Made by a program: the position numbers and the translations under genes. This document shows positions 41,698 to 61,647 of a DNA stretch of 64,000 nucleotides, piece after piece. Below the pieces are notes generated by a model. That model saw nothing but the letters and a program-made list of their open reading frames with translations, did no database searches and was not told where the DNA came from. The DNA comes from Candidatus Wallbacteria bacterium. GTDB lineage: Bacteria > Muiribacteriota > JAQTZZ01. The stretch spans positions 62,001 through 126,000 of the forward strand of contig JAQTZZ010000003.1 of the NCBI GenBank assembly GCA_028687545.1, in the 5' to 3' direction. The stretch's first letter is position 1; every line of letters begins with the position of its first letter.

Positions 41698-42696
41698 TTA
41701 TAAAGTTTTTTTCCTGAGATGTTCAATCAGCGAGGCCAGACCTGCATCCACACTGACGACCGGTTTGTATCCAAGATCGCGTTGAGCGGCTTCAATGGAA
41801 TAACAGTGAGATGTAGCAAGCTGCAGGGCCAGAAAGCGGGTCATCAGCGGTTCCGACCGGATTCCAAGCGCTCTGTAAACCGACTCCATCGCAAAACCGA
41901 TGCAATATGCGGCAGAGAGAGGCATTTTCCGGGCCACTGCCGGATGTCCCATCCCGGTGATGATGCGGTTGATAAAGTCCCAGAGATTCACTGGTTCTCC
42001 GTTTGTAATGAAATAAGCCTTCCCGCAGATTGCCGATCCTTCGGTTAACTTCCTGGAAGCAAGCAGATGGGCATAAGCTACGTTTTCCACATGAGTCACG
42101 TCAGCCATGTTTTTTCCGTTACCAACGGTGAAAAGCTTTTTTTTAGCTGCCCTTTCCAAAAGGCGCGGGATCAGGTTTGTGTCCTCTGGCCCCCAGATCA
42201 GGTGGGGCCGCAGTGCGACTGTCAAGAGTTTTCCCGGCTGGTTGGCAGCGAGTACAATCCGTTCTGCCAGAGCTTTGGTTTCGGAGTAGCAAGATAAATA
42301 TTTCTCAGGATAAGGAGCCGATTCAATCAGCATCTGCTGATCACTACCACCGAAGATTACGCTCGGGGAGGAAGTGAAAACAAGTTTTCCGACTCCGTTT
42401 CTCAGACAGGCTTTGACCACATTTTCAGTTCCCAGTACATTGGTCTTAAAATAAGGCTCCCTGAAGACCGAGATCCCGGTCCTGGCAGCTATGTGGTGCA
42501 CCTCATCAAAGCCTTGGAATGCTTTCTGGAGGTTTTCACCATCACTGATATCAGCGGTGATCACAGGGAATTTTTCTCGTTCGGCGAATTCATAATGCCC
42601 ACGTCCAAGGATGGTCACAGAGTGCCCCTCATCCCGCAGTTTGCGGCAGACAAAGCGCCCCAGGAAACCGCCTCCACCTGTGACGATTGTTTTCAA
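41698..42696 (-). CDS. oleD: 2-alkyl-3-oxoalkanoate reductase OleD
   Basis: A 332-residue NAD(P)-dependent extended SDR (3-beta-HSD group) that reduces the 2-alkyl-3-keto acid from OleA to the 2-alkyl-3-hydroxy acid. It has the cofactor motif VTGGGGFLGRF (5-15) and catalytic Y137 and K141 in YSETKALAER. Assignment rests on sequence type and on direct linkage with oleC (4-base overlap), oleB and oleA in the standard order of the long-chain olefin pathway. Confidence 0.88.
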   Translation of the reverse strand: MKTIVTGGGGFLGRFVCRKLRDEGHSVTILGRGHYEFAEREKFPVITADISDGENLQKAFQGFDEVHHIAARTGISVFREPYFKTNVLGTENVVKACLRNGVGKLVFTSSPSVIFGGSDQQMLIESAPYPEKYLSCYSETKALAERIVLAANQPGKLLTVALRPHLIWGPEDTNLIPRLLERAAKKKLFTVGNGKNMADVTHVENVAYAHLLASRKLTEGSAICGKAYFITNGEPVNLWDFINRIITGMGHPAVARKMPLSAAYCIGFAMESVYRALGIRSEPLMTRFLALQLATSHCYSIEAAQRDLGYKPVVSVDAGLASLIEHLRKKTL

Positions 42697-44345
42697 AGCT
42701 TTTTCCTGGCCCAGACCGAGAGCTTTTCCCGGAAGATTTTAGCATTGTGGCGGATGTCGACAGGAAAGGATTTGTGAAACAGGAAGATTTTAATATTTCT
42801 GGTATGTTCATATTTCTTCCCAAGTTCGAACAATTCACGCCTGAACTGTTTGACAGCCTGCCTGTCTTCAGGAAAAAATCCAGTTTTTGGTTCTACCACT
42901 ATCACCGGGCATGTTTCCCCGTCGATTTCGATTCCGACCAGTGCGGTCCTGCTAACATTCGGATGCTGATTGTAAATTGCCTCACAAGGGACAGTGAACA
43001 GAATCCGGTCTTTCAGTTCGACCCGGTGCGACTTGCGACCGCAGAACCAGAGTCTGCCCTGCTGATCCAGGTAGCCCACATCTCCAATCCTGTGCCAGAA
43101 TTCACCACCCTGCCTGATTTTTGAGAGTTCGGTTTCCGCAGGGTTCCCATAATACTCCTTTGTCACCTGGGGTCCCTTGATCACGATCTCCCCGACTTCG
43201 GAAGGGGGAAGAATCAGGGAGGAAATCCATTCCTGGATCGGGGATTCTGAAATCCTGATTACCCTGATTTCCACGTTTGGGGCAGGCATGCCCACGCAAG
43301 TGCCGAAACCCTGCCTGCTCTTCTCGAGCGTATCAGATATGAGTTTACTTCCACTGATCGAAGAGGCGGGGAGGGATTCTGTAGCACCATAAGGCGTATG
43401 GATATCTCCAAGCGGTATTACTTTCTTGAATTTTTCAACCAGACTGCCTGGCACAGGAGCTCCAGCCATCAGAACGCGTCTGAGTGTCGGCAGGACGATG
43501 TTATGATCAAGGCAGTATTCACTGACTCTGTTCCAGATTGCAGGAGATCCGAAACTGGTGGTGACTCCGTTGTCCCTGATCGCTTCCACGATGTTTGCAG
43601 GGTTGACCAGAGCAGGATGACTTGGATCCATGTCAGGTACAACGCAGGTCATGGCCAGGGCCGCGTCGAAAAGCGCGAAGACAGGAAGTCCGGCCAGGTC
43701 TACCTCGCCGGGCTGGAAATCATAGAGATCATGGAGCATCTGCACCTGGGCGTCAAACATGCCGTGTTCATAAAGCACTCCCTTGGCTGGCCCTGTACTG
43801 CCGGTTGTGAAAAGAATCGCAGCCGGAGAAGCCTTTGTGGTATCTGAAATCGGAAATGATTCACTGCATTCGGGAGAGATTTTCTCAAGCGGCAGTCCCA
43901 GAAATGAGAGGTTGCTGTTCACCACTACATTGAGCCGTGTTTTTTTGAAACAGGCTGGGAAGAGTATTCTGGCGGCATGTGCCTGTGGGATACCGATTAA
44001 AGCGTCAGGTTCCACGTTTCGGATGCATTCCAGTAGCCTTTTTATACCCATCCCTGGATCGATCAGCACAGGGATTGCGCCGATCTTGAAAACCGCAAAA
44101 GTGAGGGCGATGAATTCAATCGAAGGTTTGACCATCAGAAGAGTTTTCATACCTCTCGTCAGCCCGGAATTGAAAAGCCCGTGCGCGAATCTATCACATT
44201 CTGCGTTCAACTGCTGGAAATTCACTGAAAGATAACTCCTGCGGCCGTTGATTCTAGCGCCAGGGCAGATCACTGCTTTCTGCAGCGGAAATTTAGCCGC
44301 TGTTTCAGGCAGATATTGCGCGATGTTGAATCGTTCAGAATCCAT
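42693..44345 (-). CDS. oleC: Beta-lactone synthetase OleC
   Basis: A 550-residue AMP-forming synthetase-family enzyme that converts the 2-alkyl-3-hydroxy acid into a beta-lactone with ATP. The P-loop is LFTTGSTGPAKG (178-189). The later motifs include PYGATESLP and IGDVGYLDQQGRLWFCGRK. The phrase FALFDAALAMTCVVPDMDPSHPA is characteristic of OleC rather than of acyl-CoA ligases. It overlaps oleB by 11 bases and oleD by 4 bases. Confidence 0.92.
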   Translation of the reverse strand: MDSERFNIAQYLPETAAKFPLQKAVICPGARINGRRSYLSVNFQQLNAECDRFAHGLFNSGLTRGMKTLLMVKPSIEFIALTFAVFKIGAIPVLIDPGMGIKRLLECIRNVEPDALIGIPQAHAARILFPACFKKTRLNVVVNSNLSFLGLPLEKISPECSESFPISDTTKASPAAILFTTGSTGPAKGVLYEHGMFDAQVQMLHDLYDFQPGEVDLAGLPVFALFDAALAMTCVVPDMDPSHPALVNPANIVEAIRDNGVTTSFGSPAIWNRVSEYCLDHNIVLPTLRRVLMAGAPVPGSLVEKFKKVIPLGDIHTPYGATESLPASSISGSKLISDTLEKSRQGFGTCVGMPAPNVEIRVIRISESPIQEWISSLILPPSEVGEIVIKGPQVTKEYYGNPAETELSKIRQGGEFWHRIGDVGYLDQQGRLWFCGRKSHRVELKDRILFTVPCEAIYNQHPNVSRTALVGIEIDGETCPVIVVEPKTGFFPEDRQAVKQFRRELFELGKKYEHTRNIKIFLFHKSFPVDIRHNAKIFREKLSVWARKKL

Positions 44346-45222
44346 CCGATTCCCTTTCTGTCAGAAAATTTTTAATCGCCAGGGCGGATTTGAGTGGTTC
44401 GTCCTCTAGCACGAAATGCCCGGCGTTTTCCATTTTAATGGTCAAGGCGTCCGGAAAAAAATCCAGCCAGCGGGAGAGAAACTTAGGTGTGAAGCAGAAG
44501 TCACGCATTCCCCAGAGGAGAAGGACAGGTTTGGATGCCAGACTGCTTAGTTTACCTTCGATACCCAGTATCGTGTTGTAACTTGGGTGAGACTTATTCA
44601 TCGGAATGTCCTTTACGAAACTGTCGATGCCTACCCTGGAAGCATAATTTCCATATGGGAAGAGATAACCATTCCAGACACCGGCTGGGAGCCCTGTATG
44701 CTTGGCTGTCCCCATGTATCTCGCAGCCCGGAGAAACAGATTCAGTTTCCGTACTGCAAAAGTGCCCAGCAGAGGAAACCTGCAGATTGCGATCTGCCAT
44801 GGCATCCGACGGGAGCGAAAGGAGGCTGAATTCATGATCACCATCTTCCTTACCCGGTCAGGGTTTCTGACCGCTACCCCCATACCGATGGCTCCTCCCC
44901 AGTCGTGCACGATCAGGTCGAATTTGTCGATGTTCATTGAATTGAGGAGGCTTTCGCAGTTGTCGATGTGATTGCTGAGAAGGTATGGATAATTCTGTGG
45001 TTTATCCGACAGGCCGAATCCGATATGGTCTGGAACCACGCAGCGGAAGCTGCCGGAAAGCTCCCGCACAAGGCTCCGGAAATAATACGACCAGGTAGGA
45101 TTTCCGTGCAGCATCAGGGTGGGAAATCCTGTACCTTCATCGAGATAGTTCAGTCGATAGCTGTTAATCTGGTGTTTGAATGTGGAAAACGGATATTCCG
45201 TCGGGGAGAGCCGGTCTACCAT
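44335..45222 (-). CDS. oleB: Beta-lactone decarboxylase OleB
   Basis: A 295-residue alpha/beta-hydrolase related to haloalkane dehalogenases that decarboxylates the beta-lactone to a cis-olefin. Motifs: oxyanion HGNPTWSY (39-46), nucleophile D107 in VHDWGG, acid near D241 (WGMRDFCF), base H269 (AGHFVLED). The Asp nucleophile and its place between oleA and oleC support OleB over a dehalogenase. It overlaps oleA by 7 bases and oleC by 11 bases. Confidence 0.9.
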   Translation of the reverse strand: MVDRLSPTEYPFSTFKHQINSYRLNYLDEGTGFPTLMLHGNPTWSYYFRSLVRELSGSFRCVVPDHIGFGLSDKPQNYPYLLSNHIDNCESLLNSMNIDKFDLIVHDWGGAIGMGVAVRNPDRVRKMVIMNSASFRSRRMPWQIAICRFPLLGTFAVRKLNLFLRAARYMGTAKHTGLPAGVWNGYLFPYGNYASRVGIDSFVKDIPMNKSHPSYNTILGIEGKLSSLASKPVLLLWGMRDFCFTPKFLSRWLDFFPDALTIKMENAGHFVLEDEPLKSALAIKNFLTERESDGF

Positions 45223-46262
45223 TTTATCCCGAGCATCATGCAGTTGATTCCGCTGCCGATGCCGAGCAGGGCTATCAGATCGCCGCTGCGGACAAGGTTG
45301 TTCTCCACACCCATGGACAAAGTGACTGGCAGTGAAACTGCGCCCATATTTCCTAAAAATTCAAAAGTCGAAAAATCTTTCTCCAGGTCTATTCCCAGAG
45401 TCTCAAACATCAACTTGCGGTGAGCCTTGCCCACCTGATGGCAGAAAAATCGTTTGACATTGCTTTCCGTAAATTTCAAGGTGTTCTTGGTTTCTTCCCA
45501 GGTGCGGCGCGCCAGCTGGCAGCCGGCCTGCAGCAGAGTTTCAGCTTCCGTCTTCATCAGCATGGTGATATTCTTGGCTACAGGTGCCGTGGATCCGCCC
45601 TGGCAGAGATGGCTGAATTTTGAAGAAGCCATGAAGCTTCCACCAAGCAGCTGATGCTTGGCTTTGGAGATCGATGAATGCACGAGTACCGCGGCTGCCG
45701 CACCGCAACCGATGGTCAGGGATGGAAATGAGGCCTTGATCGTTTCGCGGGTGAGGTTCTCATCATGCAGCAGCATGTCGATGGTGGATTCCACCAGCGG
45801 TCTGCCGTTTTCCCCTGCGACAACCAGAGCGGATTTGATGATCCCGCTTTCGATCATGTTACCGACTACCACCATGGCGTCGAGAAAGCCCAGGCAGGCG
45901 TTGGACAAGTCGAAGACCATCGAATTGTCAGACAATTCCAGTTTCTCGTGAACCACGGAAGCTGTGGCTGGTTCCATAAAATCCCTGCAGACAGAGGAAT
46001 GCACAAGGCAGTTTATCGAGTCTTTAGAAATTCCGGATTTTTCCAGGGCGAGTTTTCCGGCCTGGGCTGAAACTTCGCTTGGAACAGTGCCGGGTTTCCA
46101 GAATTTACGCTCGCGGATTCCGGTCATCATTTCCAGGCGGCCGAAGGGCAGCTTGAGGCGCTCATAGACAGGCGCCAGCCAGGATTCGATCTTTTCCGAT
46201 GTCACCACTTCTTCAGGCAGGTAGTGAGCGATCGACTCGATGCAGACATTTTTAAAAAGCAT
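45216..46262 (-). CDS. oleA: Acyl-CoA head-to-head condensing enzyme OleA
   Basis: A 348-residue thiolase-fold condensing enzyme (KAS III group) that joins two long-chain acyl-CoA (or acyl-ACP) molecules into a 2-alkyl-3-keto acid. Catalytic residues by family pattern are C123 (SNACLGFL), H275 (CHQVGKAH) and N305 (LGNMGAVS). E97 in MEPATAS corresponds to the glutamate that reaches the partner subunit in characterised OleA and separates it from FabH. It is the first gene of the cluster, with its own promoter 27 bases upstream. Confidence 0.93.
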   Translation of the reverse strand: MLFKNVCIESIAHYLPEEVVTSEKIESWLAPVYERLKLPFGRLEMMTGIRERKFWKPGTVPSEVSAQAGKLALEKSGISKDSINCLVHSSVCRDFMEPATASVVHEKLELSDNSMVFDLSNACLGFLDAMVVVGNMIESGIIKSALVVAGENGRPLVESTIDMLLHDENLTRETIKASFPSLTIGCGAAAAVLVHSSISKAKHQLLGGSFMASSKFSHLCQGGSTAPVAKNITMLMKTEAETLLQAGCQLARRTWEETKNTLKFTESNVKRFFCHQVGKAHRKLMFETLGIDLEKDFSTFEFLGNMGAVSLPVTLSMGVENNLVRSGDLIALLGIGSGINCMMLGIKW

Positions 46263-47871: not shown

Positions 47872-48849
47872 CTATTTTTGAAACTGCCTGTGATTCCTGA
47901 AACTGAACGGCAGGAAAGAGTGAATCGTCGGTTCACCGGTCAGAACCTGATACAGCCTGTCCACGCCGAGAGCATTGCCTGTGCAGGCCGGCAGACCATT
48001 GGAGAGCACTTCCAGAAAGCGGTCGTTGATTTCATAAACAGGCTGGCCCCGCAATCTGCGTTCAGTCTGATCAGACACGAATCTCTTCTTCTGATGTCCG
48101 GCGTCTGTCAGCTCCGAAAAACCGTTGCAGATCTCTATCCCATCCAGATAAAGTTCGAATCTTTCCGCATAAAGGGAATTTTTCACCGAAGGCCTGGCCA
48201 TTGAACCGAGTTTTTCCGGATAATCGCAGAGAAAAACCGCTTTGCCCTTGAAGGTTGGCTCGATGTAAGTCAATAAAAGCTTGAAGAACAGATCCTCCCA
48301 TTCGCCGTCTGATGTAAGCGTAAGCTTGGATTTCAAACAGGCTTCCTGCAGTGTTTCCTTTGTCAGGCAGCGGTCCAGGTCGATTTTCAGGATTGCTGCG
48401 AACAGTTCCCTGATCGAACGGCGTTCAAAGGGTGGTTCCCAGTCTTTGCGGATTTTTTCTCCTAAAACTTCCCGCACCAGTTCCTCTGTCTCCCTCATCA
48501 TGTAGTTATAATCATGTCCGGTGATGTACCATTCCAGGATGGTAAACTCCGGGTTGTGGATTTTACCGATTTCACCGTAACGGAAGGCTTTACAGAGCTG
48601 GAAGATACTGTCGAACCCCATGGAAAGCAGCTCTTTCATGTAATATTCCGGGGAGGTCTGAAGATAGAGGGGGAAACCATTGAGGCAGGATTCGAATGAG
48701 GCAATATTGGCGTCCAGTGTGGCATAAGGAGAAAGTTCCGGTGTTTCCACTTCCAGATAGCCTTTTCGATCAAAAAATTCCCGGATCGTCTTGAGAAGCC
48801 GGAATCTGCCTTTGATCAACCGGAAATTATCTGAACTGCTGGATGTCAA
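47872..48849 (-). CDS. epmA: EF-P lysine ligase EpmA (PoxA/GenX)
   Basis: A 325-residue class II lysyl-tRNA-synthetase-like enzyme without the anticodon-binding domain, the same length as E. coli EpmA. EpmA attaches beta-lysine to elongation factor P, which relieves ribosome stalling at polyproline. Class II motifs are visible: FFDRKGYLEVETPELSP, FRYGEIGKIHNPEFTILEWY and the motif 3 region ACTGNALGVDRLYQVL. The start appears to be TTG at 48849, and its 5' end overlaps the FecR-like gene by 23 bases. The partner genes epmB and efp are not in the window. Confidence 0.88.
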   Translation of the reverse strand: MTSSSSDNFRLIKGRFRLLKTIREFFDRKGYLEVETPELSPYATLDANIASFESCLNGFPLYLQTSPEYYMKELLSMGFDSIFQLCKAFRYGEIGKIHNPEFTILEWYITGHDYNYMMRETEELVREVLGEKIRKDWEPPFERRSIRELFAAILKIDLDRCLTKETLQEACLKSKLTLTSDGEWEDLFFKLLLTYIEPTFKGKAVFLCDYPEKLGSMARPSVKNSLYAERFELYLDGIEICNGFSELTDAGHQKKRFVSDQTERRLRGQPVYEINDRFLEVLSNGLPACTGNALGVDRLYQVLTGEPTIHSFLPFSFRNHRQFQK

Positions 48850-52282: not shown

Positions 52283-53841
52283 GAAATGTTCTGTCTGCAT
52301 TCTTCTATTCGGACCCCGCGAAATGTCCAATCATTGAAGGACAGGAAAAAATCAGCACTTCATATCTGAAATATTGCCTCGATGAATCCCGTCTGGACGG
52401 AACGATTCCGGACAGGATTTATTTCCCTGAAAATACGGAACAGACAGCACAAGCCCTTGCCGAGATATCCGCAAGAGGCGAATCGGTCACGATTTCGGGC
52501 GGCAGAACCGGGATCGTTGGCGGAGCTGTGAATCACGCTTTGAATATCCTTTCACTGGAAAGAAATACCCCGCTGGCTGTAAATCTGTCCAGCGACAGGA
52601 AGTTCACGGTAACAGCAGGTGCAGGAGCCAGACTAAGTGATCTTAATAATTTCCTGAAAAAGCGCTGCAGTTTTGCAGACGGAAATCTATTCTTTCCTGT
52701 TGATCCCACGGAGACGACGGCATCTTTGGGAGGAATGGCGGCAGCCAACGCGAGCGGCGCTCGAACTCTTTACTATGGCCCGTGCAGGGACTGGATCAAC
52801 GGTCTGACTGTTGTATTGCAGGACGGTGCTGTGCTCAAGCTCAAGCGAGGAGAGTGTTTTTGTGTTGACGGAGAATTCATTCTGGAATCAGCTGGTTTCA
52901 AAAAGCACAGGCTTGAAGGGATCAAGCCTCCTGCCACCAAACATGTCGCCGGATATCTTCTGAATCGTGAGATGGATCTGATCGATCTTTTCATCGGGGG
53001 AGAAGGAACGCTGGGAGTAATCACAGAGCTGGAGCTCAAGCTTGCCCCTGCCTGGAAAAAATGCCTGTATTTATGTATTTTTGCTCCTGAGCGCTGTCTG
53101 GAGGCTCCTCTGGTGCATGACCTGAAAGAAATGAATCTTATTTCCCTGGAGTTCATGGACTCCGGTTCTTTGAAGATCCTCAAGGAATTCAAGCAGGAAA
53201 TAGCAGCAGCCAGCTTTGTACCGGACTTCCCGTCAGATACAGCCAAGGTGTTTTATCTGGAGATCGGACTGGAACACGAAAGCGGGATTCCAGAACAAAT
53301 ATCCAGCCTGGAATCTATCCTTAAAGTGCACGGCATGGATCCCAGCCATACCTGGGCTGGATTTTCCAGACAGTACCAGGACGCCATGAAAAAGTTCCGT
53401 CATGCTTTGCCAGAGAGAATCAACAGTCTGATCTCCCGCCGCAAGCTTAAAAATCCGGACCTGACAAAAGTCGCTACAGACATGGCGGTTCCTGATGAAG
53501 CCTTATCCGAAATCATGAGCTGCTATTATCAGGAACTGGGAAAACTGGGACTCCAGTCCGCAGTATTCGGGCACATCGGGAACGGACACCTGCATGTCAA
53601 CATTCTACCTGACTGTAAGGCGGATCTGCAGAAAGCCAAGGCTCTTTACCTGGAGTTTGCTGCCAAGGCAGTCTCACTAGGCGGAAGCGTGGCTGCTGAG
53701 CACGGCATCGGCAGGCTTAAAAAAAACCTGCTGGAAGTGCAGTATTCAAAGGCGGAATTGCAGGAAATGCGCAGTCTGAAAGAATTCTTTGACCCTGAAT
53801 ACAGGCTGAATCCGGGGGTGCTGTTTGACAAGCCGGTTTAG
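52279..53841 (+). CDS. GlcD/D-lactate dehydrogenase-type FAD oxidoreductase
   Basis: A 520-residue flavoprotein that oxidises a 2-hydroxy acid such as D-lactate or glycolate. The FAD_binding_4 domain carries VTISGGRTGIVGGA and PVDPTETTASLGGMAAANASG. The C-terminal FAD-oxidase domain carries GHIGNGHLHVNI and AAEHGIGRLKK. It is coupled to the fused ETF gene by 4 bases, the same partnership as in electron-confurcating lactate dehydrogenases (LctBCD), where ETF passes electrons onward. No 4Fe-4S domain is seen in either protein. Confidence 0.9.
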   Translation: MRNVLSAFFYSDPAKCPIIEGQEKISTSYLKYCLDESRLDGTIPDRIYFPENTEQTAQALAEISARGESVTISGGRTGIVGGAVNHALNILSLERNTPLAVNLSSDRKFTVTAGAGARLSDLNNFLKKRCSFADGNLFFPVDPTETTASLGGMAAANASGARTLYYGPCRDWINGLTVVLQDGAVLKLKRGECFCVDGEFILESAGFKKHRLEGIKPPATKHVAGYLLNREMDLIDLFIGGEGTLGVITELELKLAPAWKKCLYLCIFAPERCLEAPLVHDLKEMNLISLEFMDSGSLKILKEFKQEIAAASFVPDFPSDTAKVFYLEIGLEHESGIPEQISSLESILKVHGMDPSHTWAGFSRQYQDAMKKFRHALPERINSLISRRKLKNPDLTKVATDMAVPDEALSEIMSCYYQELGKLGLQSAVFGHIGNGHLHVNILPDCKADLQKAKALYLEFAAKAVSLGGSVAAEHGIGRLKKNLLEVQYSKAELQEMRSLKEFFDPEYRLNPGVLFDKPV

Positions 53842-56800
53842 GGCGCTTTTACATACCAAGGAGTAGTGTCCTCCCCGGGATCAGTTGTAATCCTCAACTG
53901 GTTTGTTCCGTCAGACGCATTCATGGTGTAAATATCTGTGTTGCCGTTGCGGTCTGAGCTGAAAACGACCTTTTTTCCGTCAATGGAATAGCATGGAGAC
54001 TGCTCATTGTAAGGTGAGTTGGTCAGGCAATTGGCATTGGTGCCGTCTGTGTTCATCGTATAGATCTGATATTTCCCGGAGCCATTGCCATTGGTGCAGT
54101 AGAGGATCTTACTCTCGTCAGTAGAATACATCGGTGTGACATTGTCGACCTTATTCGTGTAAGTGAGCTGAGTCTGGTTGCCGCCGCTTGAAGTCATAGT
54201 AAAGATCTCATTGCTGCCGTCACGGTCTGAACTGAAAACTATCATGGTTCCGCTCGGGGAAAATCTTGGAGTAGTATCATTGCCAGCGATGTTTGTGAGC
54301 TTGGTGGAACCTGTGCCGTCGGCGTTCATGGTAAAGATCTCCGGATTTACAGGCATTGTGATCACTGCTGAGACATAGGCGATCTTGGACCCGTCAAACG
54401 AATAAGCTCCCATGCCGTCGGCAGCACCCGGATTGTTGGTCATGTTCTGCTGGTTTGTGCCGTCAATGTTCATTTTAAAGAGCTCGTAGTTGTATGTGCC
54501 GAGATCTCTGGAAAAGATAATGCTGGTTCCGGCCCGCGAGACACAAGGCATCAGGTCGTTCTGAGTATTGTTCGTGAGCCTGGTCACATTGGTGCCGTCA
54601 TCATTCATGATGTAGATCTCGAGATTGCTGGTGCCCCCGTCGCGGCTGGAACAAAAGACAATCCTTTCTTTGGCGACTGTGACGATTGTGACATTGAAAT
54701 CCGCTGTAACTGTGACACCGCTTTCAACATAAGTGTTTCTCAATACTGCAGTCCCGGCAGATGACGGGGCTTCGTAGTTTCCCGCAATGATGGCGCCGTT
54801 ACCGTTTACAAGCTTCCAGGTTCCTGTGGTCACGACTTTGGTCGAACCGTCAGAATAAACTGCAGTGACAGTGATATTGCTCAGCGCATATTTGGAATTA
54901 ATCTGAACCTCTGTCGAATTCGGAGTGAGCGTCAAACCCACCAGCTTGAAATTGTTGACTGCAAACACAATCGATTCTCCTGGAGTGCCGTCTGCCTTTC
55001 CATCATTAGGTAGAATTCTCACCCTTACGTTCGGTTCATTGGTCTTGATGTCCTGGAATGATCCCCAGGTGATTTTTTTACCTGTGCCTGGAGCGATCCC
55101 GGTTGTAGTGCCTGAGACGTTGTTGCTCTGTATGTAGTTTGTACCGCCATTCTTGGAGTAATAGAAAGTGATCTTGCAGGGGTCATTATCAGCATCCGTC
55201 AGGTTGTATGTAACTTCGATGCTGTCGGAATTCCCGCTTGTAGTAACAGTATTGACTGCTGGAGGAGTGTTTCCGTTGTTGACGGCAAACACGGCTGAAT
55301 AACCGGGAACTCCGTCCACTTTTCCATCATTAGGCAGGACCATGATTTTAACATTCGGCTCATTGGTGGTGACGTCTGCTGTGGAATTCCAGGTAAAAGC
55401 GTGATTCGGACCTGGAGTAAGGTTCGTTGTCGGCCCGAAGACGCTGCCGCTCTGAGTATAAGTAGTACCGCCATCCTTACTGTATTTGAACACAATGCTG
55501 CATTTGTCATTCTCGGCATCTGCCAGGTCAAATGTAACCTGGATGCTCCCTGAGTTTCCGACTACATTGACATTGCTGGATACAGGCGGGTTGTTGAGCG
55601 GACCGCCGTTCAGCACCTGGAACACTCCTGATTCTCCGGCAGTGCCGTCCTGAACTCCATCGTTGGGCAGTATCTTGACTTTGACATTGATCTCATTAGT
55701 GGCAATGTCCAGGTTGGATTTCCAGCCGATGGTTTTCCCGGTTCCTGGTACAATGCCGGTGGTTGCACCGTTCAAATTGTTGCTCAGGACATAGGTCGTG
55801 CCGCCATTCTTGGAAAAATAGAATTTAATGCTGCAGGCATTGTTTTCATTGTCTGCCAGATTGTAGGAAATCGTGATCTCTCCGCTGTTGCCCTGATTCG
55901 ATACGCTGGTGGCCACCGGAGGACTGTTGTTCAGCGTGGTGACAAGCAGCACCTGCGAAGGAACGCCTTCTGTTCCGACCCCATTTACAGCAGTGACGGT
56001 GATTTGATATTGAGTGTTTGGATTCAGGCCGGTAATTACGACTTCGTTAGAATTTCCTACAGTGGAATAGAGGACGCCGTTAACATAGACTTTGTAGCCT
56101 GTAGCACCGGTCACAGAATTCCAGTCGAGAGTAAACGAATTTCCGGTAATATTTGAGGAAGCGAGTCCAGTCGGTGGAGGCAGCAGGGTTCTGACTGTCA
56201 GGACAGCTTTGTCACCCTCGCTGCTGGCGGTCAGGCCGCAGACCTCCATCCTGTATGAAGTGTCCGGCTGCAGGCCTGAAATGCTCTTGGAAAGGGCGTT
56301 CAGATTCTGGACCACCAGAACTCCGTCCCGGTAGATATTGTATCCGGTCGCGCTGGCGACAGCGTTCCAGCTCAAAGTAAAGGATGAGTCGGTCAGCATG
56401 CTGGCTGCGAGACCAGCAGGAGGTGCCAGTCTGGTCAGGACTGTGATGGGAGAGGACTTGGCTGATTCTCCATACGTGTTCGACGCCGTGACCTGTACAT
56501 TATAGGAAGTATTGGCGGTAAGCCCGGTCAGGGACGCATTGGCAAAGACCAGATCCGACATGGTCAGGACATTGTCAAGGTAAACCGAGTATTTCGTAGC
56601 TCCAGTGGACTTGTTCCAGGCCAGTTTGAACCCGCTCGAGGTCACTTCAGTGGCAGCAAGTCCGGTAGGCGGTTCGGGCGGAAAATGCTGTTCAGGCAGA
56701 GTCTTTACATTGATCTCGGCTTTCTGGCTCTCACCATTGCTGTTCACAGCTGAAACAGCCATCACATAGGTTGTATCAGCAGTGAGTCCGTTGACTTCCT

Positions 56801-57320
56801 TGGAGGTTCCTGCGACATTGTCGGCCAGCAGAGAGTTGTTTTTATAGATCTTGTAGTACAGAGCTTTGTCCACCGGATTCCAGTTGAGCATGAAACTGGC
56901 AGTAGTGATATTGAGAGCGGCTAGACCGGTCGGGGCTCCGGGTGGATTGGCGCCTGGAGTCCTCACGATGAAAGGCGATGAAAGGGAGCTTTCTCCCCGC
57001 TGGTTTTCTGAACTCACCTGCATCACATAATTGACTTCCTTGGTCAGACCCGTGATATTAAGCAGATTGTCAAAAACGAAGGCTTTGTATAACTTCCCGT
57101 CTTTGTAAACCCTGTATTTATCCGCTCCCGGTGTTTTATACCAGATAAGCTTAAAACTGGTGGTGGTAAGGTCATCCGCTTTGAGTACAGTCGGTACTCC
57201 AGGCAGCTCGGTCAGGACGAGGCCCCCGATCTCTTTCCCCTGGCAGCCGGAAAAAACGGCAATAAAAACCGTCAAAACGGCCATTATCGATAGAAAAACA
57301 CTGAAATCAATTTTTTTCAT
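53838..57320 (-). CDS. Lipoprotein with fibronectin III modules and PD40 propeller
   Basis: A 1160-residue surface or periplasmic lipoprotein. The signal ends in a lipobox (VFSGC, Cys26). Five fibronectin-type III modules follow (about residues 38-465), each with a PTGLAA...FTLSWN...YKVYVNG pattern. Three roughly 105-residue repeats come next, each with a CSIKFYFSKNGG- and NVKVKILPNDG-type core. A Big_2-like domain (about 800-880) and a PD40/TolB-like propeller (about 885-1160) with IYTMNADGTN-type blades complete the chain. The structure suggests binding to polysaccharide or proteins at the envelope. Its stop overlaps the convergent GlcD gene by 4 bases. Confidence 0.85.
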   Translation of the reverse strand: MKKIDFSVFLSIMAVLTVFIAVFSGCQGKEIGGLVLTELPGVPTVLKADDLTTTSFKLIWYKTPGADKYRVYKDGKLYKAFVFDNLLNITGLTKEVNYVMQVSSENQRGESSLSSPFIVRTPGANPPGAPTGLAALNITTASFMLNWNPVDKALYYKIYKNNSLLADNVAGTSKEVNGLTADTTYVMAVSAVNSNGESQKAEINVKTLPEQHFPPEPPTGLAATEVTSSGFKLAWNKSTGATKYSVYLDNVLTMSDLVFANASLTGLTANTSYNVQVTASNTYGESAKSSPITVLTRLAPPAGLAASMLTDSSFTLSWNAVASATGYNIYRDGVLVVQNLNALSKSISGLQPDTSYRMEVCGLTASSEGDKAVLTVRTLLPPPTGLASSNITGNSFTLDWNSVTGATGYKVYVNGVLYSTVGNSNEVVITGLNPNTQYQITVTAVNGVGTEGVPSQVLLVTTLNNSPPVATSVSNQGNSGEITISYNLADNENNACSIKFYFSKNGGTTYVLSNNLNGATTGIVPGTGKTIGWKSNLDIATNEINVKVKILPNDGVQDGTAGESGVFQVLNGGPLNNPPVSSNVNVVGNSGSIQVTFDLADAENDKCSIVFKYSKDGGTTYTQSGSVFGPTTNLTPGPNHAFTWNSTADVTTNEPNVKIMVLPNDGKVDGVPGYSAVFAVNNGNTPPAVNTVTTSGNSDSIEVTYNLTDADNDPCKITFYYSKNGGTNYIQSNNVSGTTTGIAPGTGKKITWGSFQDIKTNEPNVRVRILPNDGKADGTPGESIVFAVNNFKLVGLTLTPNSTEVQINSKYALSNITVTAVYSDGSTKVVTTGTWKLVNGNGAIIAGNYEAPSSAGTAVLRNTYVESGVTVTADFNVTIVTVAKERIVFCSSRDGGTSNLEIYIMNDDGTNVTRLTNNTQNDLMPCVSRAGTSIIFSRDLGTYNYELFKMNIDGTNQQNMTNNPGAADGMGAYSFDGSKIAYVSAVITMPVNPEIFTMNADGTGSTKLTNIAGNDTTPRFSPSGTMIVFSSDRDGSNEIFTMTSSGGNQTQLTYTNKVDNVTPMYSTDESKILYCTNGNGSGKYQIYTMNTDGTNANCLTNSPYNEQSPCYSIDGKKVVFSSDRNGNTDIYTMNASDGTNQLRITTDPGEDTTPWYVKAP
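55150..55900. repeat. Internal protein-coding repeats of the lipoprotein gene
   Basis: Within the lipoprotein gene, a unit of about 310 bases recurs roughly three times (about 54950-55900), coding the NSPPV...SNQGNSG...FYFSKNGGTTY...ILPNDG domain. The copies differ at many bases, which points to old duplications rather than recent expansion. Confidence 0.6.
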
Positions 57321-57401: not shown

Positions 57402-59474
57402 TTAAACCTTCCTGCCCCGCCTCAGGATGTCAAGCACCCTGTCGTGAGGTATCGAAGGGCAGAAACGGCCTGAACGTCCGTCCATGCCGTTTGAGCAGAA
57501 AATTGCGTTCAAAACAGCTTCTTCGGTAGCTTCGATCACTGCTTCGTAAAAAGAATTGATCTGGGAAATGCTCAGGAATTTCATTGTCTGATAATGGCTC
57601 TTACCCCTGGCCTCCCGGTAAAAACGGTTACCCGTGGAAAAGGCGATGATGATTTCACCGCTGGTAGTGGCTGCGTGTGAACCTACCCGGCCCAGCCCTA
57701 AGGCAGCCCTCTTGCAGATCCGGTTGAGCTGTCCGGCGATCAGTGGAGCGTCGGTGGCGATTACCACGATGATCGACCCATAGCTGTAGTTTCGCCGGAT
57801 CTCCTGTTCGTATAGTTTGTCCAATTCCCTTCCGACTACCGCTCCATCGATGGTCAGGTTGCGCATGTTGCCGAAATTCGAAAGCACCAGTACACCGATA
57901 GTGTAGCCCCCTTCCTCGATGGGGAGCATCCGCGAACTGCTGCCGATGCCGCCTGCGAAATCGAATGTGGTCATACCGGTTCCCGCTCCGATCGAGCCCT
58001 GAATCACAGGGCCGCCTTTAGCCCGGTTGAGAGCTCTGATTGCGTCGTTGGGAGTAGTGCGCTTGACCCGCACATCGTGCAGGAATGAGTCATCAGTTTC
58101 TCCGACTACGGGTATGATCACATCTGAAATCGTGCCAAGCCCGGAATATTTAGAAGTCATATACGATACTATTCCTGTATGAACTTCACCTACAGACATG
58201 GTGTTGGTGAGCACAATCGGGGATTCGATCCATCCCCATTCCATCACCTGGTTGAGACCGATCATTTCACCGATTCCATTGAGCACGAAACCGCCTGCCA
58301 CAAACGGATGTTCATAGATGTTGCCTTCAGTAGGAAGAATTGCAGTCACACCAGTCCGGACAGAAGTGAGTTCAGCTGAACCCGGAATTTCCACATTGTC
58401 CTCGACATAGGTCAAATGCCCTACCTTCACACCCTTGACATCAGTGATGGCATTGAATTTACCGGTCGGAAAGATTCCGATTTCAAGTCCCAGTTCCCTG
58501 ACTGTAGATCTGGGAGGAAGCAGTTTGCGCGCCTTGAATGGCGGTTTGGGGCTGTATGTGAAATAAATCTTGTAGCGCTGTTTTGCGGACTGGATGATGG
58601 ATCTGATCACAAAGCGGAAGTCCATCCCTTTGCTTAGAAAATATTTATAATATTCACTTTCCGGAAAGAGTGAAGGCATGGGATTGAAATTTACGAAATA
58701 AAGTTCTCCCTCATCATTTCTGATGAAGATTATTTCGCCGAAATCGCTTGCAGCCAGGGATTTGAAGATATCCACGGCCAAAGTATTCAGACGGGGTTCC
58801 AGTTCCGTGAGGTCAGGCAGTTTCTTCTTACGCCCGCTGGACAGCTCCGAGAAATTGATGGCTGTAATTGCCTTTTCCATTCCTTCGATCACCAGCACCC
58901 GGATTTTCCTGCCTCTGATGAATGACTCCAGCACAAGACCTTCGGGATGCCTGCTGAGCATGCGTCTGATCTTTTCCCGGTATTTTTTGGGGTTATCCAC
59001 TAAAATGTCTCTCTTGATGTCTGGAGCGAGGTCCAGTTTATGAGGCTTGATCAAAACCGGAAAATCGATTTCCCCCCTGATCTTCTGCCCCGGGTCCTTG
59101 ACGTAGAGTGTATCAGGGACAAGGACTTTGTGGCTGCTGGAGATGCTCTGAAAAAGGAAGCTGGAAAAACTGATGTGAAAAGTATTGGAATTGCTGCCGA
59201 TGTAAGGAATACCCTGCTGTTCAAACAGGGAAGGATAAAAAGCCATCTGGGTCTTATTGCGATTCCCGTCGGCCAGGTTGAAAATCATGTCCGGCTCGGT
59301 GGAGAGAATTTTCTCGGCAATGAAGTCGGGTTTCCCGGAAACTTCGATTGGCACAGGTGTGTCACCCAGTTCCCTGATCACAGTGGAAATTTCATCAATG
59401 AATATTTCTTCATAGTCTTTTCTGAATTGAGGTGAATCTTCGCGAGGGAGATTATATGCAACAGCGATTCTCAT
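57402..59474 (-). CDS. Fusion of ATP-grasp domain and P1 (DmpA-type) aminopeptidase
   Basis: A 690-residue two-part protein. Residues 1 to about 315 resemble D-Ala-D-Ala-ligase-type ATP-grasp enzymes (FPVLIKPHKLD, VLESFIRGRKIRVLVIEG), but the metal-binding end reads YFVNFNPMP where an ExN motif is normal, so this half may be inactive in ligation. Residues from about 330 form a P1-family peptidase (DmpA/BapA): GVKVGHLT, GSIGAGTGM, GGIGSSSR and GSIIVVIATDAPL. In DmpA-type enzymes a Gly-Ser bond ahead of the VVATDAPL strand self-cleaves; here that is before S567, leaving a beta chain of 124 residues. AAGGAG 5 bases before the ATG at 59474 fixes the start. Confidence 0.88.
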   Translation of the reverse strand: MRIAVAYNLPREDSPQFRKDYEEIFIDEISTVIRELGDTPVPIEVSGKPDFIAEKILSTEPDMIFNLADGNRNKTQMAFYPSLFEQQGIPYIGSNSNTFHISFSSFLFQSISSSHKVLVPDTLYVKDPGQKIRGEIDFPVLIKPHKLDLAPDIKRDILVDNPKKYREKIRRMLSRHPEGLVLESFIRGRKIRVLVIEGMEKAITAINFSELSSGRKKKLPDLTELEPRLNTLAVDIFKSLAASDFGEIIFIRNDEGELYFVNFNPMPSLFPESEYYKYFLSKGMDFRFVIRSIIQSAKQRYKIYFTYSPKPPFKARKLLPPRSTVRELGLEIGIFPTGKFNAITDVKGVKVGHLTYVEDNVEIPGSAELTSVRTGVTAILPTEGNIYEHPFVAGGFVLNGIGEMIGLNQVMEWGWIESPIVLTNTMSVGEVHTGIVSYMTSKYSGLGTISDVIIPVVGETDDSFLHDVRVKRTTPNDAIRALNRAKGGPVIQGSIGAGTGMTTFDFAGGIGSSSRMLPIEEGGYTIGVLVLSNFGNMRNLTIDGAVVGRELDKLYEQEIRRNYSYGSIIVVIATDAPLIAGQLNRICKRAALGLGRVGSHAATTSGEIIIAFSTGNRFYREARGKSHYQTMKFLSISQINSFYEAVIEATEEAVLNAIFCSNGMDGRSGRFCPSIPHDRVLDILRRGRKV

Positions 59475-59662
59475 GAGAACTCCTTGGTGATGCAAATTGC
59501 TGCGTTGGTATAATATTCTTCTATTAATTCGAGTTTTGCAAGTGCCGGGAACCAGTTCTGAAAGTGGCAGTAGTATTTCTCAAAAAACCAAAAAAATTAT
59601 TGCTTTTTTTCACCCGATAAATTAGCCTCATTATCAAAACAGAGCAGTGGAGAAAAAGAATT

Positions 59663-60640
59663 GTGAAGATAGGCATGACCTATGATCTCAAGGATGATTA
59701 TGTTGCAGAAGGCTGGAGCGACGAAGATGCAGCCGAATTCGACAGTGTTGAGACTGTCGAGGCCATTGACGCCTCTCTCAAGAAACTTGGACATAAAACT
59801 GACAGGATAGGACATTTCAAATCACTGGTAAACAGACTGGCCCGCGGTGACAGATGGGATCTTGTTTTCAACATTGCAGAAGGCATTTACGGAGTGGGCA
59901 GGGAAGCCCAGGTCCCGGCGATTCTCGATGCCTACCAGATACCCTACACTTTTTCCGACACTGTGATCATGGCTCTGACCCTGCAGAAAGCCCTCACCAA
60001 GTGGGTGGTGCAGGATCTGGGAGTTCCTACTCCCGATTTTGTGGTGGTCAGAAAACTCCTGGACATAACTCAGGTAAACCTGGCTTACCCGCTTTTTGCG
60101 AAACCTGTGGCTGAAGGAACAGGGAAAGGGGTTACCTCTAAATCCAAAATCGCTGATAAAAAAGAACTGACCACTGCCTGCCGCGAACTGCTGGAGCGCT
60201 TCAAGCAGCCTGTACTGATCGAACGCTACCTGCCTGGTCGTGAATTCACTGTGGTGGTGGTTGGAACAGGCAGCAATTCCCAGGCCCTCGGAGTGATGGA
60301 GATCATCCTGAAACCCGTAGCCGAACAGAACGCATATTCCTACCTTAATAAGGAAAATTACAAGGAAGTTGTGGAATATGAATTTCCTGAGGATGAAGTG
60401 GCTGAAGCGGCCAAGAAACTCGCTGTGCAGGTGCATGTCGGGCTGAACTGCAGGGATTCTTCCAGATCCGATTTCCGGATGGACGAGCACGGAAATCTTC
60501 AGTTCATGGAAATCAACCCGATCGCCGGTCTGCATCCTGTAAATTCGGATATGCCGATCATCTGCAACCATTATGGCATAGATTTCGACACTTTGATCAA
60601 AATCATCCTGGATTCGGCGATGGAGCGAGTCGTCAAGTGA
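59663..60640 (+). CDS. D-Ala-D-Ala-ligase-like ATP-grasp enzyme
   Basis: A 325-residue ATP-grasp ligase related to DdlA/DdlB. It has the N-terminal domain with LVFNIAEGIYGVGREAQVPA (the Ddl-like EG region), LFAKPVAEGTGKGV for ATP binding, PVLIERYLPGREFTVVV and the metal-binding end FMEINPIAGLHP. Such enzymes join amino acids or peptides with ATP. It starts at a GTG and overlaps the next ATP-grasp gene by 4 bases. The fused ATP-grasp/peptidase gene lies divergently 188 bases away. A housekeeping Ddl role is possible, but the context points to a dedicated pathway. Confidence 0.88.
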   Translation: MKIGMTYDLKDDYVAEGWSDEDAAEFDSVETVEAIDASLKKLGHKTDRIGHFKSLVNRLARGDRWDLVFNIAEGIYGVGREAQVPAILDAYQIPYTFSDTVIMALTLQKALTKWVVQDLGVPTPDFVVVRKLLDITQVNLAYPLFAKPVAEGTGKGVTSKSKIADKKELTTACRELLERFKQPVLIERYLPGREFTVVVVGTGSNSQALGVMEIILKPVAEQNAYSYLNKENYKEVVEYEFPEDEVAEAAKKLAVQVHVGLNCRDSSRSDFRMDEHGNLQFMEINPIAGLHPVNSDMPIICNHYGIDFDTLIKIILDSAMERVVK

Positions 60641-61647
60641 GGAAGCAGGAGAAACTTTCCGCGCTTATCATTTACAACGAACCAGGAAATGACGCTGCTC
60701 TAGATGACAAAGATACACTTGTGCAGGTGGAACATGTTTCCAAAGCCCTGACAGGTCTTGGAGTCAGAAATGCCTGCCGGGTATTTTCACTTGATTTTCC
60801 GGATTTTTCCAGGGAAATCACCAGGGAAAAACCTGATTTCGTGTTTAATCTGGTGGAATCTCTGGAAAACCGTGACAGCCTGGCTTACATTGTACCGGAG
60901 TTCCTGGAAATCCTGGAAATTCCTTACACTGGAGCCAGTTCCCAGAGCATGTACCTCTGCGGCAACAAACTGCTGATCAAGAAAATTCTCCTCTGCTCTA
61001 ATATCCCGGCTCCTTCCTGTTTCTGCCTGACTGATCCGATGCTGCAGCACTTCCGAAAAGGAAGCTATATCTTGAAATCCGTATCTGAACATGCTTCCAG
61101 TTCGATCACAGACAATTCCATACTCGATGTCACTGATGCAGACATACTCAGAGGCACTCTGCTGGAACTCAGAAATAGTAAACATACCGAATATTTCGCT
61201 GAGCAGTATATTCCCGGGCGTGAATTCAGCATCTCCCTGATCGGTGATTTCGAGACTGTAGACTGCTTACCAGTGGTGGAACTGCGCTTCCACAAATATC
61301 CGGACGGCAAACCTGAGATTTACTCATATCAGGCAAAATGGGATGAAACTTCCTTCGAATATCAGCATGTTGAGCGTTTGTTCGAACATCCCAAGTCTGA
61401 TCTCCCCCTGATTGCCAGGATCAAGAAGCTTGCCAGATCATGCTGGACGGCTTTTCATCTTAAAGGCTATGCCAGAATGGATTTCAGGGTGGATGTGCGC
61501 AACCGGCCCTGGCTGATCGATATCAACGTCAATCCCTGCATTTCTCCTGACAGCACATTTTTCACCGCTTGTGAACAGGCCGGTTATTCTTATCAGGACA
61601 TGGTGAAAAAGATAGTTAAGATGGCGGTCAGCAGGTCCATTTTTTAA
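60637..61647 (+). CDS. Second D-Ala-D-Ala-ligase-like ATP-grasp enzyme
   Basis: A 336-residue ATP-grasp enzyme paralogous to the previous one. Phrases: FVFNLVESLENRDSLAYIVP, ILKSVSEHASSSITD, FAEQYIPGREFSISLIG, YARMDFRVD, and the metal-binding end WLIDINVNPCISPDS, in which DIN replaces EIN. It begins with GTG and is coupled by 4 bases to the gene before it. Two adjacent ligases of the same family suggest two successive couplings or a heteromeric enzyme. Substrates are unknown. Confidence 0.86.
   Translation: MRKQEKLSALIIYNEPGNDAALDDKDTLVQVEHVSKALTGLGVRNACRVFSLDFPDFSREITREKPDFVFNLVESLENRDSLAYIVPEFLEILEIPYTGASSQSMYLCGNKLLIKKILLCSNIPAPSCFCLTDPMLQHFRKGSYILKSVSEHASSSITDNSILDVTDADILRGTLLELRNSKHTEYFAEQYIPGREFSISLIGDFETVDCLPVVELRFHKYPDGKPEIYSYQAKWDETSFEYQHVERLFEHPKSDLPLIARIKKLARSCWTAFHLKGYARMDFRVDVRNRPWLIDINVNPCISPDSTFFTACEQAGYSYQDMVKKIVKMAVSRSIF

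Follow-up and report, generated by a model that had tools for sequence, protein, structure and literature searches.

Several described systems come close to parts of the locus reported here, which encodes a fusion of a degenerate ATP-grasp ligase domain to a P1/S58 peptidase (F) and, divergently, two Ddl-like ATP-grasp ligases (L1 and L2). Carnosine is made by an ATP-grasp ligase and cut by P1 enzymes (PMC9235088). The likeness of carnosine synthase and beta-aminopeptidase to this locus is one of function, a beta-amino-acyl dipeptide being made and then cut, and is an analogy only; here there are two ligases, the genes form a bacterial cluster and a ligase part is fused to the peptidase. In glutathionylspermidine synthetase/amidase a single chain unites an ATP-grasp ligase with an amidase that opposes it, a plan comparable to that of the intact fusions in genomes G005 and G536 (see below). 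Glutathionylspermidine amidase is a CHAP cysteine amidase, whereas F gave no CHAP-type Pfam match, has a P1/S58 domain instead and a dead ligase half. DmpA, BapA and PH0078, all P1/S58 enzymes, share with F the fold, the Gly-Ser site and the Asn and Ser-x-Glu/Asp catalytic residues. Unlike F, the solved members of the family have no ATP-grasp fusion, and the position of Tyr146 in DmpA is occupied by Asp in F.

Beta-lysine is known from antibiotics, from the modification of EF-P, from lysine fermentation and from the solute acetyl-beta-lysine. The operons to which L1 and L2 are related share a lysine 2,3-aminomutase and a GNAT acetyltransferase with the acetyl-beta-lysine pathway (AblA/AblB); they differ from it by two extra ligases, and the GNAT protein of the operon tested gave no AblB match and only a weak match to RimI. 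Each of the three kinds of enzyme, ATP-grasp ligase, P1 peptidase and lysine aminomutase, is known, and for the present their combination is apparently undescribed: no published account of it was found in the open-access literature, a scope that leaves out most subscription journals.

Organisation of the locus

The window, a stretch of 64,000 nucleotides, corresponds to G000:C3:62001-126000, in which G000 denotes the source genome (assembly of 4.54 Mb in 108 contigs). All three genes lie where the initial annotation had placed them, L1 and L2 overlapping by 4 bases and diverging from F as it had described (Table 1). Among the genomes compared, this divergent three-gene layout was present in G000 alone.

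The likely start of F is the ATG at 59474, with AAGGAG (59480-59485) five bases upstream; the listed TTG start would add 7 residues (697 aa). Residues of F are numbered on the 690-aa form, except for Pfam spans, which use the 697-aa reading. A gene that starts 81 bases beyond the end of F in the same orientation (53838-57320, minus strand) is possibly co-transcribed with it and encodes a lipoprotein-like protein of 1160 aa containing fibronectin III and PD40 repeats.

Table 1. Features of the F-L1-L2 locus (positions in the window)
Feature	Position	Strand	Length or basis
F, fusion of a degenerate A-type ATP-grasp ligase domain and a P1/S58 peptidase	57402..59474	-	690 aa
F N half (residues 1-305), predicted Ddl fold, ligase motifs lost	58560..59474	-	motif alignment, tree, model
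N-F-N (residues 262-264 of F) in place of the E-x-N metal site	58683..58691	-	alignment
F C half (residues 325-690), complete P1/S58 peptidase	57402..58502	-	Pfam, near-invariant residues, model
Gly566-Ser567 of F, expected self-cleavage site and nucleophile	57774..57779	-	alignment
Divergent intergenic region F/L1, includes F ribosome-binding site (59480-59485)	59475..59662	.	188 bp
L1, Ddl-like ATP-grasp ligase, catalytic motifs complete; orthologue of aminomutase-operon ligase 1	59663..60640	+	
L2, Ddl-like ATP-grasp ligase, metal Glu replaced by Asp (DIN); orthologue of aminomutase-operon ligase 2, fast evolving	60637..61647	+	
Terminator-like hairpin downstream of L2	61889..61916	+	consensus match only

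The fusion protein F

Pfam recognised Peptidase_S58 (353 bits, residues 348-677, profile positions 1-305 of 307) and Dala_Dala_lig_C (37.7 bits, residues 231-302) in F, and together with the alignment this bears out the original description of one chain with a Ddl-like ATP-grasp half and a complete P1 peptidase containing a Gly-Ser site. A gene-calling artefact, which a stop between the two halves in related genomes was to reveal, is ruled out, since the halves share one frame in two of them. In G005 (same phylum, other family) a single frame of 758 aa spans both halves (identity to F 45% in total and 59% for the peptidase part); in G536, which belongs to the phylum of G067 and not to that of G000, the single frame is 756 aa long. 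In both genomes the ligase half is intact. Judged from these recurrences, the fusion is more than a chance event.

In the AlphaFold2 models, F (mean pLDDT 86.4, pTM 0.60) and the G005 fusion (mean pLDDT 87.7, pTM 0.58) each show two well-predicted domains; because of these pTM values, the relative placement of the domains is uncertain in both models. With the model of F as query, Foldseek returned the P1 aminopeptidases 2drh and 5tzb for the peptidase half and the Ddl structure 3r5x for the N half. A plasmid search with F matched 212 records, none of which covered 80% of it, and a contig scan with F as query gave a single distant ATP-grasp match only.

The C half retains 76 of the 80 near-invariant S58 residues, and its G566-S567, N533, S605 and E607 align with G249-S250, N218, S288 and D290 of DmpA. 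Its AlphaFold model superimposes on PH0078 and on a beta-aminopeptidase with TM scores (to target) of 0.93 and 0.92, and its closest solved relatives are aminopeptidases. F therefore combines the full-length Pfam domain, the fold, the Gly-Ser site and the catalytic residues of the P1/S58 family, and by its residues the peptidase half is intact, with the catalytic set kept. G001, from the same family as G000, encodes the peptidase by itself, with no ligase half.

The N half retains 34 of the 73 near-invariant A-type ligase residues, against 93-100% in each of the 15 relatives used as controls. The altered metal site (NFNPMP) noticed at first is real, and the damage extends further than was noted then: besides D249I and E262N at the metal Asp and Glu, there is R247E, the nucleotide-lid motif EGSSK is lost, the invariant Asp-Lys of A domains (residues 104-105) is gone, and a gap of about 20 residues lies near the Ddl Lys-Tyr region. 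The ligase halves of G005 and G536 retain the motifs lost in F. On the evidence of these motifs, the N half of F is a dead ligase. The kept residues are spread over its three parts (15/28, 9/22 and 10/23); the losses are about equal, so that substrate binding, the role that the initial annotation had tentatively proposed for this half, is not singled out. In the tree the N half groups with the G005 and G536 ligase halves (support 99/93), within the A-domain clade (100/99), on a very long branch. It still models as a Ddl fold, mostly with high confidence, and its codon use is coding-like, although part of this could come from the fact that the peptidase downstream has to be translated.

Ligases L1 and L2

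L1 and L2 share the Ddl-like ATP-grasp domain with the Ddl family (Dala_Dala_lig_C, 93 and 63.5 bits, respectively). The motifs are complete in L1, and L2 has the same motifs with one metal Glu changed to Asp (DIN). Both remain far below the NCBIfam Ddl cut-off of 243 bits (L1 158, L2 105.5). The true Ddl of G000, with both Pfam Ddl domains, is encoded on contig C52, and in the tree L1, L2 and the N half of F fall in clades separate from it. The scores, the tree and the Ddl on C52 rule out that L1 and L2 are ordinary housekeeping Ddl, the outcome that would have undone the initial annotation. From their motifs, L1 and L2 are apparently working peptide ligases. Contig C1 of G000 additionally carries a paralogue of L1, and contig C26 a gene in which an L2-like ligase is fused to a GNAT.

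Aminomutase operons and a possible link to beta-lysine

The clades in which L1 and L2 fall (support 100/100 and 100/99) are those of ligases from aminomutase operons; they include loci L098, L099, L120, L121 and L190, each with an adjacent lysine 2,3-aminomutase. The operon is widespread, in the phylum of G000 and many others, and consists of a lysine 2,3-aminomutase-like radical SAM enzyme, ligase 1, ligase 2 and often a GNAT acetyltransferase. L1 and L2 are orthologous to its two ligases; no aminomutase or acetyltransferase gene lies beside the G000 locus. In 382 genomes searched, an L2-like ligase and an aminomutase were both present in 55, and in 35 of the 55 they were less than 5 kb apart. 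All 26 aminomutases from loci with such a ligase have kept D293, D330, R134 and K337, of which D293 and D330 are the lysine side-chain contacts in solved lysine 2,3-aminomutase. Glutamate 2,3-aminomutase was ruled out as the operon enzyme by D293 and D330 and by a lower score.

The sole KamA-family gene of G000 is located on contig C2, where it is part of a lysine-fermentation cluster that also contains KDD and KCE. Its product scores over the AblA cut-off, as a lysine 2,3-aminomutase, and beta-lysine should therefore be made in the cell. An EpmA homologue (47872-48849, minus strand; TIGR00462, 313.9 bits against a cut-off of 286.9) is encoded in the window at 10 kb from the F-L1-L2 locus. EpmA is the EF-P beta-lysine ligase; no EpmB was found in G000, which has only the fermentation aminomutase. 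The link of the G000 locus to beta-lysine is thus indirect. An S58 peptidase and an aminomutase operon occurred in the same genome 7 times (p 0.05), which is borderline and ignores kinship.

A gene for an HDAC-type deacetylase overlaps the end of the fusion gene of G005, and relatives of this deacetylase are present in the aminomutase loci L120 (a GNAT-HDAC fusion with 43% identity in the HDAC part) and L099; none was found in G000. As a hint, the HDAC and GNAT genes would agree with a lysine-like side chain to which an acetyl group is added and from which it is removed. HDAC-type deacetylases of 580-586 aa are encoded at L120:7246-8991, L099:4582-6339 and L206:5686-7428, two of them within aminomutase-ligase loci.

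On a Thioflavicoccus plasmid (NC_019941.1, locus L082) an L2-like ligase gene adjoins KamA. SbnA-like, ornithine cyclodeaminase and diaminobutyrate aminotransferase genes also lie beside the ligase gene, possibly another diamino-acid peptide cluster.

Ligase-peptidase pairs in the phylum of G067

A double ligase with ATP-grasp domains A and B has its gene upstream of an S58 peptidase gene in the G067 phylum. Both were present in 126 genomes and on one contig in 111; the distance was less than 5 kb in 87 of these 111, always (87/87) on the same strand and in the same order, with a median gap of 314 bases. F likewise links an A-type ligase domain to an S58 peptidase, its N half belonging to the A clade and being fused. 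The coupling of the peptidase subfamily of F with ligases rests on many genomes; the adjacency of F to L1 and L2 is a single case. No aminomutase was found beside the A-B-peptidase pair in the loci read, and this module and the aminomutase operons may therefore handle different peptides.

Proposed function

From domain content, predicted fold, loss and retention of motifs, orthology, the recurrent fusion and conserved neighbourhoods, we infer a product shared by ligases and peptidase, its beta-lysine content, an order of steps and a role for the dead half. The reading that best explains the whole, which we hold tentatively and put a little short of an even chance, is that L1 and L2 build a small peptide, possibly with beta-lysine, that the peptidase of F opposes them, and that the N half of F is a former ligase. 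L1 and L2 would be active ATP-dependent ligases that add amino acids one after another, giving a small non-ribosomal peptide. The P1/S58 half of F would cut itself at Gly566-Ser567, and the mature peptidase would remove an unusual N-terminal residue (a beta- or D-amino acid) from this peptide or a close relative, in its turnover or trimming. The ATP-grasp half, formerly an A-type ligase, has lost catalysis and would serve at most in folding, assembly or binding. The peptidase also offers a clue to the product, given the preference of P1 enzymes for peptides that begin with an unusual residue; beta-lysine is the likeliest such residue, because the orthologues of L1 and L2 adjoin lysine 2,3-aminomutases. 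The building or trimming of a small non-ribosomal peptide, already suggested in the initial annotation, has gained strong comparative support from the neighbours in the second phylum and the aminomutase-ligase operons. A cell-wall peptide, its other suggestion, found no backing, as no peptidoglycan gene is among the annotated neighbours.

The same ligase-peptidase module might act on a peptide without beta-lysine, made of D-amino acids, beta-alanine or ordinary L-residues. That P1 enzymes also cleave other dipeptides, for example carnosine (PMC9235088), that the A-B-peptidase pairs have no aminomutase beside them and that the aminomutase of G000 sits in a fermentation cluster all speak for such a peptide; yet orthologues of L1 and L2 directly adjoin a lysine 2,3-aminomutase in at least five other genomes, and we consider it possible but rather unlikely. 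Still more doubtful is a role of F as a general P1 aminopeptidase, its N half a decaying remnant and its place next to ligases of an unrelated pathway accidental. G005, G536 and 87 genomes of the phylum of G067 also couple a peptidase of this subfamily to ligases, and the N half keeps its predicted Ddl fold, both of which argue against an accident, even though the divergent layout is not kept even within the family (G001 has the lone peptidase), fewer than half of the near-invariant residues of the N half are left (34/73, on its very long branch) and its frame must stay open in any case for synthesis of the downstream peptidase.

The P1 half could also work forwards, as an acyl transferase or maturase finishing the peptide of L1 and L2, and not as a hydrolase. 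Given activated donors, P1 enzymes synthesise beta-peptides and carnosine (PMC9235088); some members of the fold superfamily, such as ThnT, act on other acyl substrates; and in the phylum of G067 the peptidase gene is co-directional with the ligases, as a pathway gene would be. Since the closest solved relatives are aminopeptidases and no activated donor is evident at the G000 locus, we regard this as very improbable.

The conserved association of two ligases with an aminomutase and the presence of a corresponding ligase-peptidase system in at least two phyla point towards a metabolism of small peptides, one that is open to testing. A widespread, so far undescribed pathway can be imagined in which beta-lysine comes from lysine 2,3-aminomutase and is built into small peptides by paired Ddl-like ligases; a GNAT and sometimes an HDAC-type enzyme would acetylate and deacetylate these, and their breakdown would fall to a P1 peptidase, which is repeatedly found fused to a ligase or encoded next to one. 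In this full extent the pathway is a conjecture that we think less probable than its failure by a good measure.

Other observations

L2-like domains occur in further contexts. At L105:6104-8044 a methyltransferase is fused to an L2-like ATP-grasp domain (646 aa), and L2-like matches lie in frames of 640-710 aa in many other genomes, which may represent the same methyltransferase fusion. Elsewhere in the window, a likely oleABCD cluster for long-chain olefins (41698-46262, minus strand) comprises genes for an ACP synthase III-like protein, an alpha/beta hydrolase, an OleC-like AMP-binding ligase (PRK09274, 689 bits) and an OleD-like reductase.
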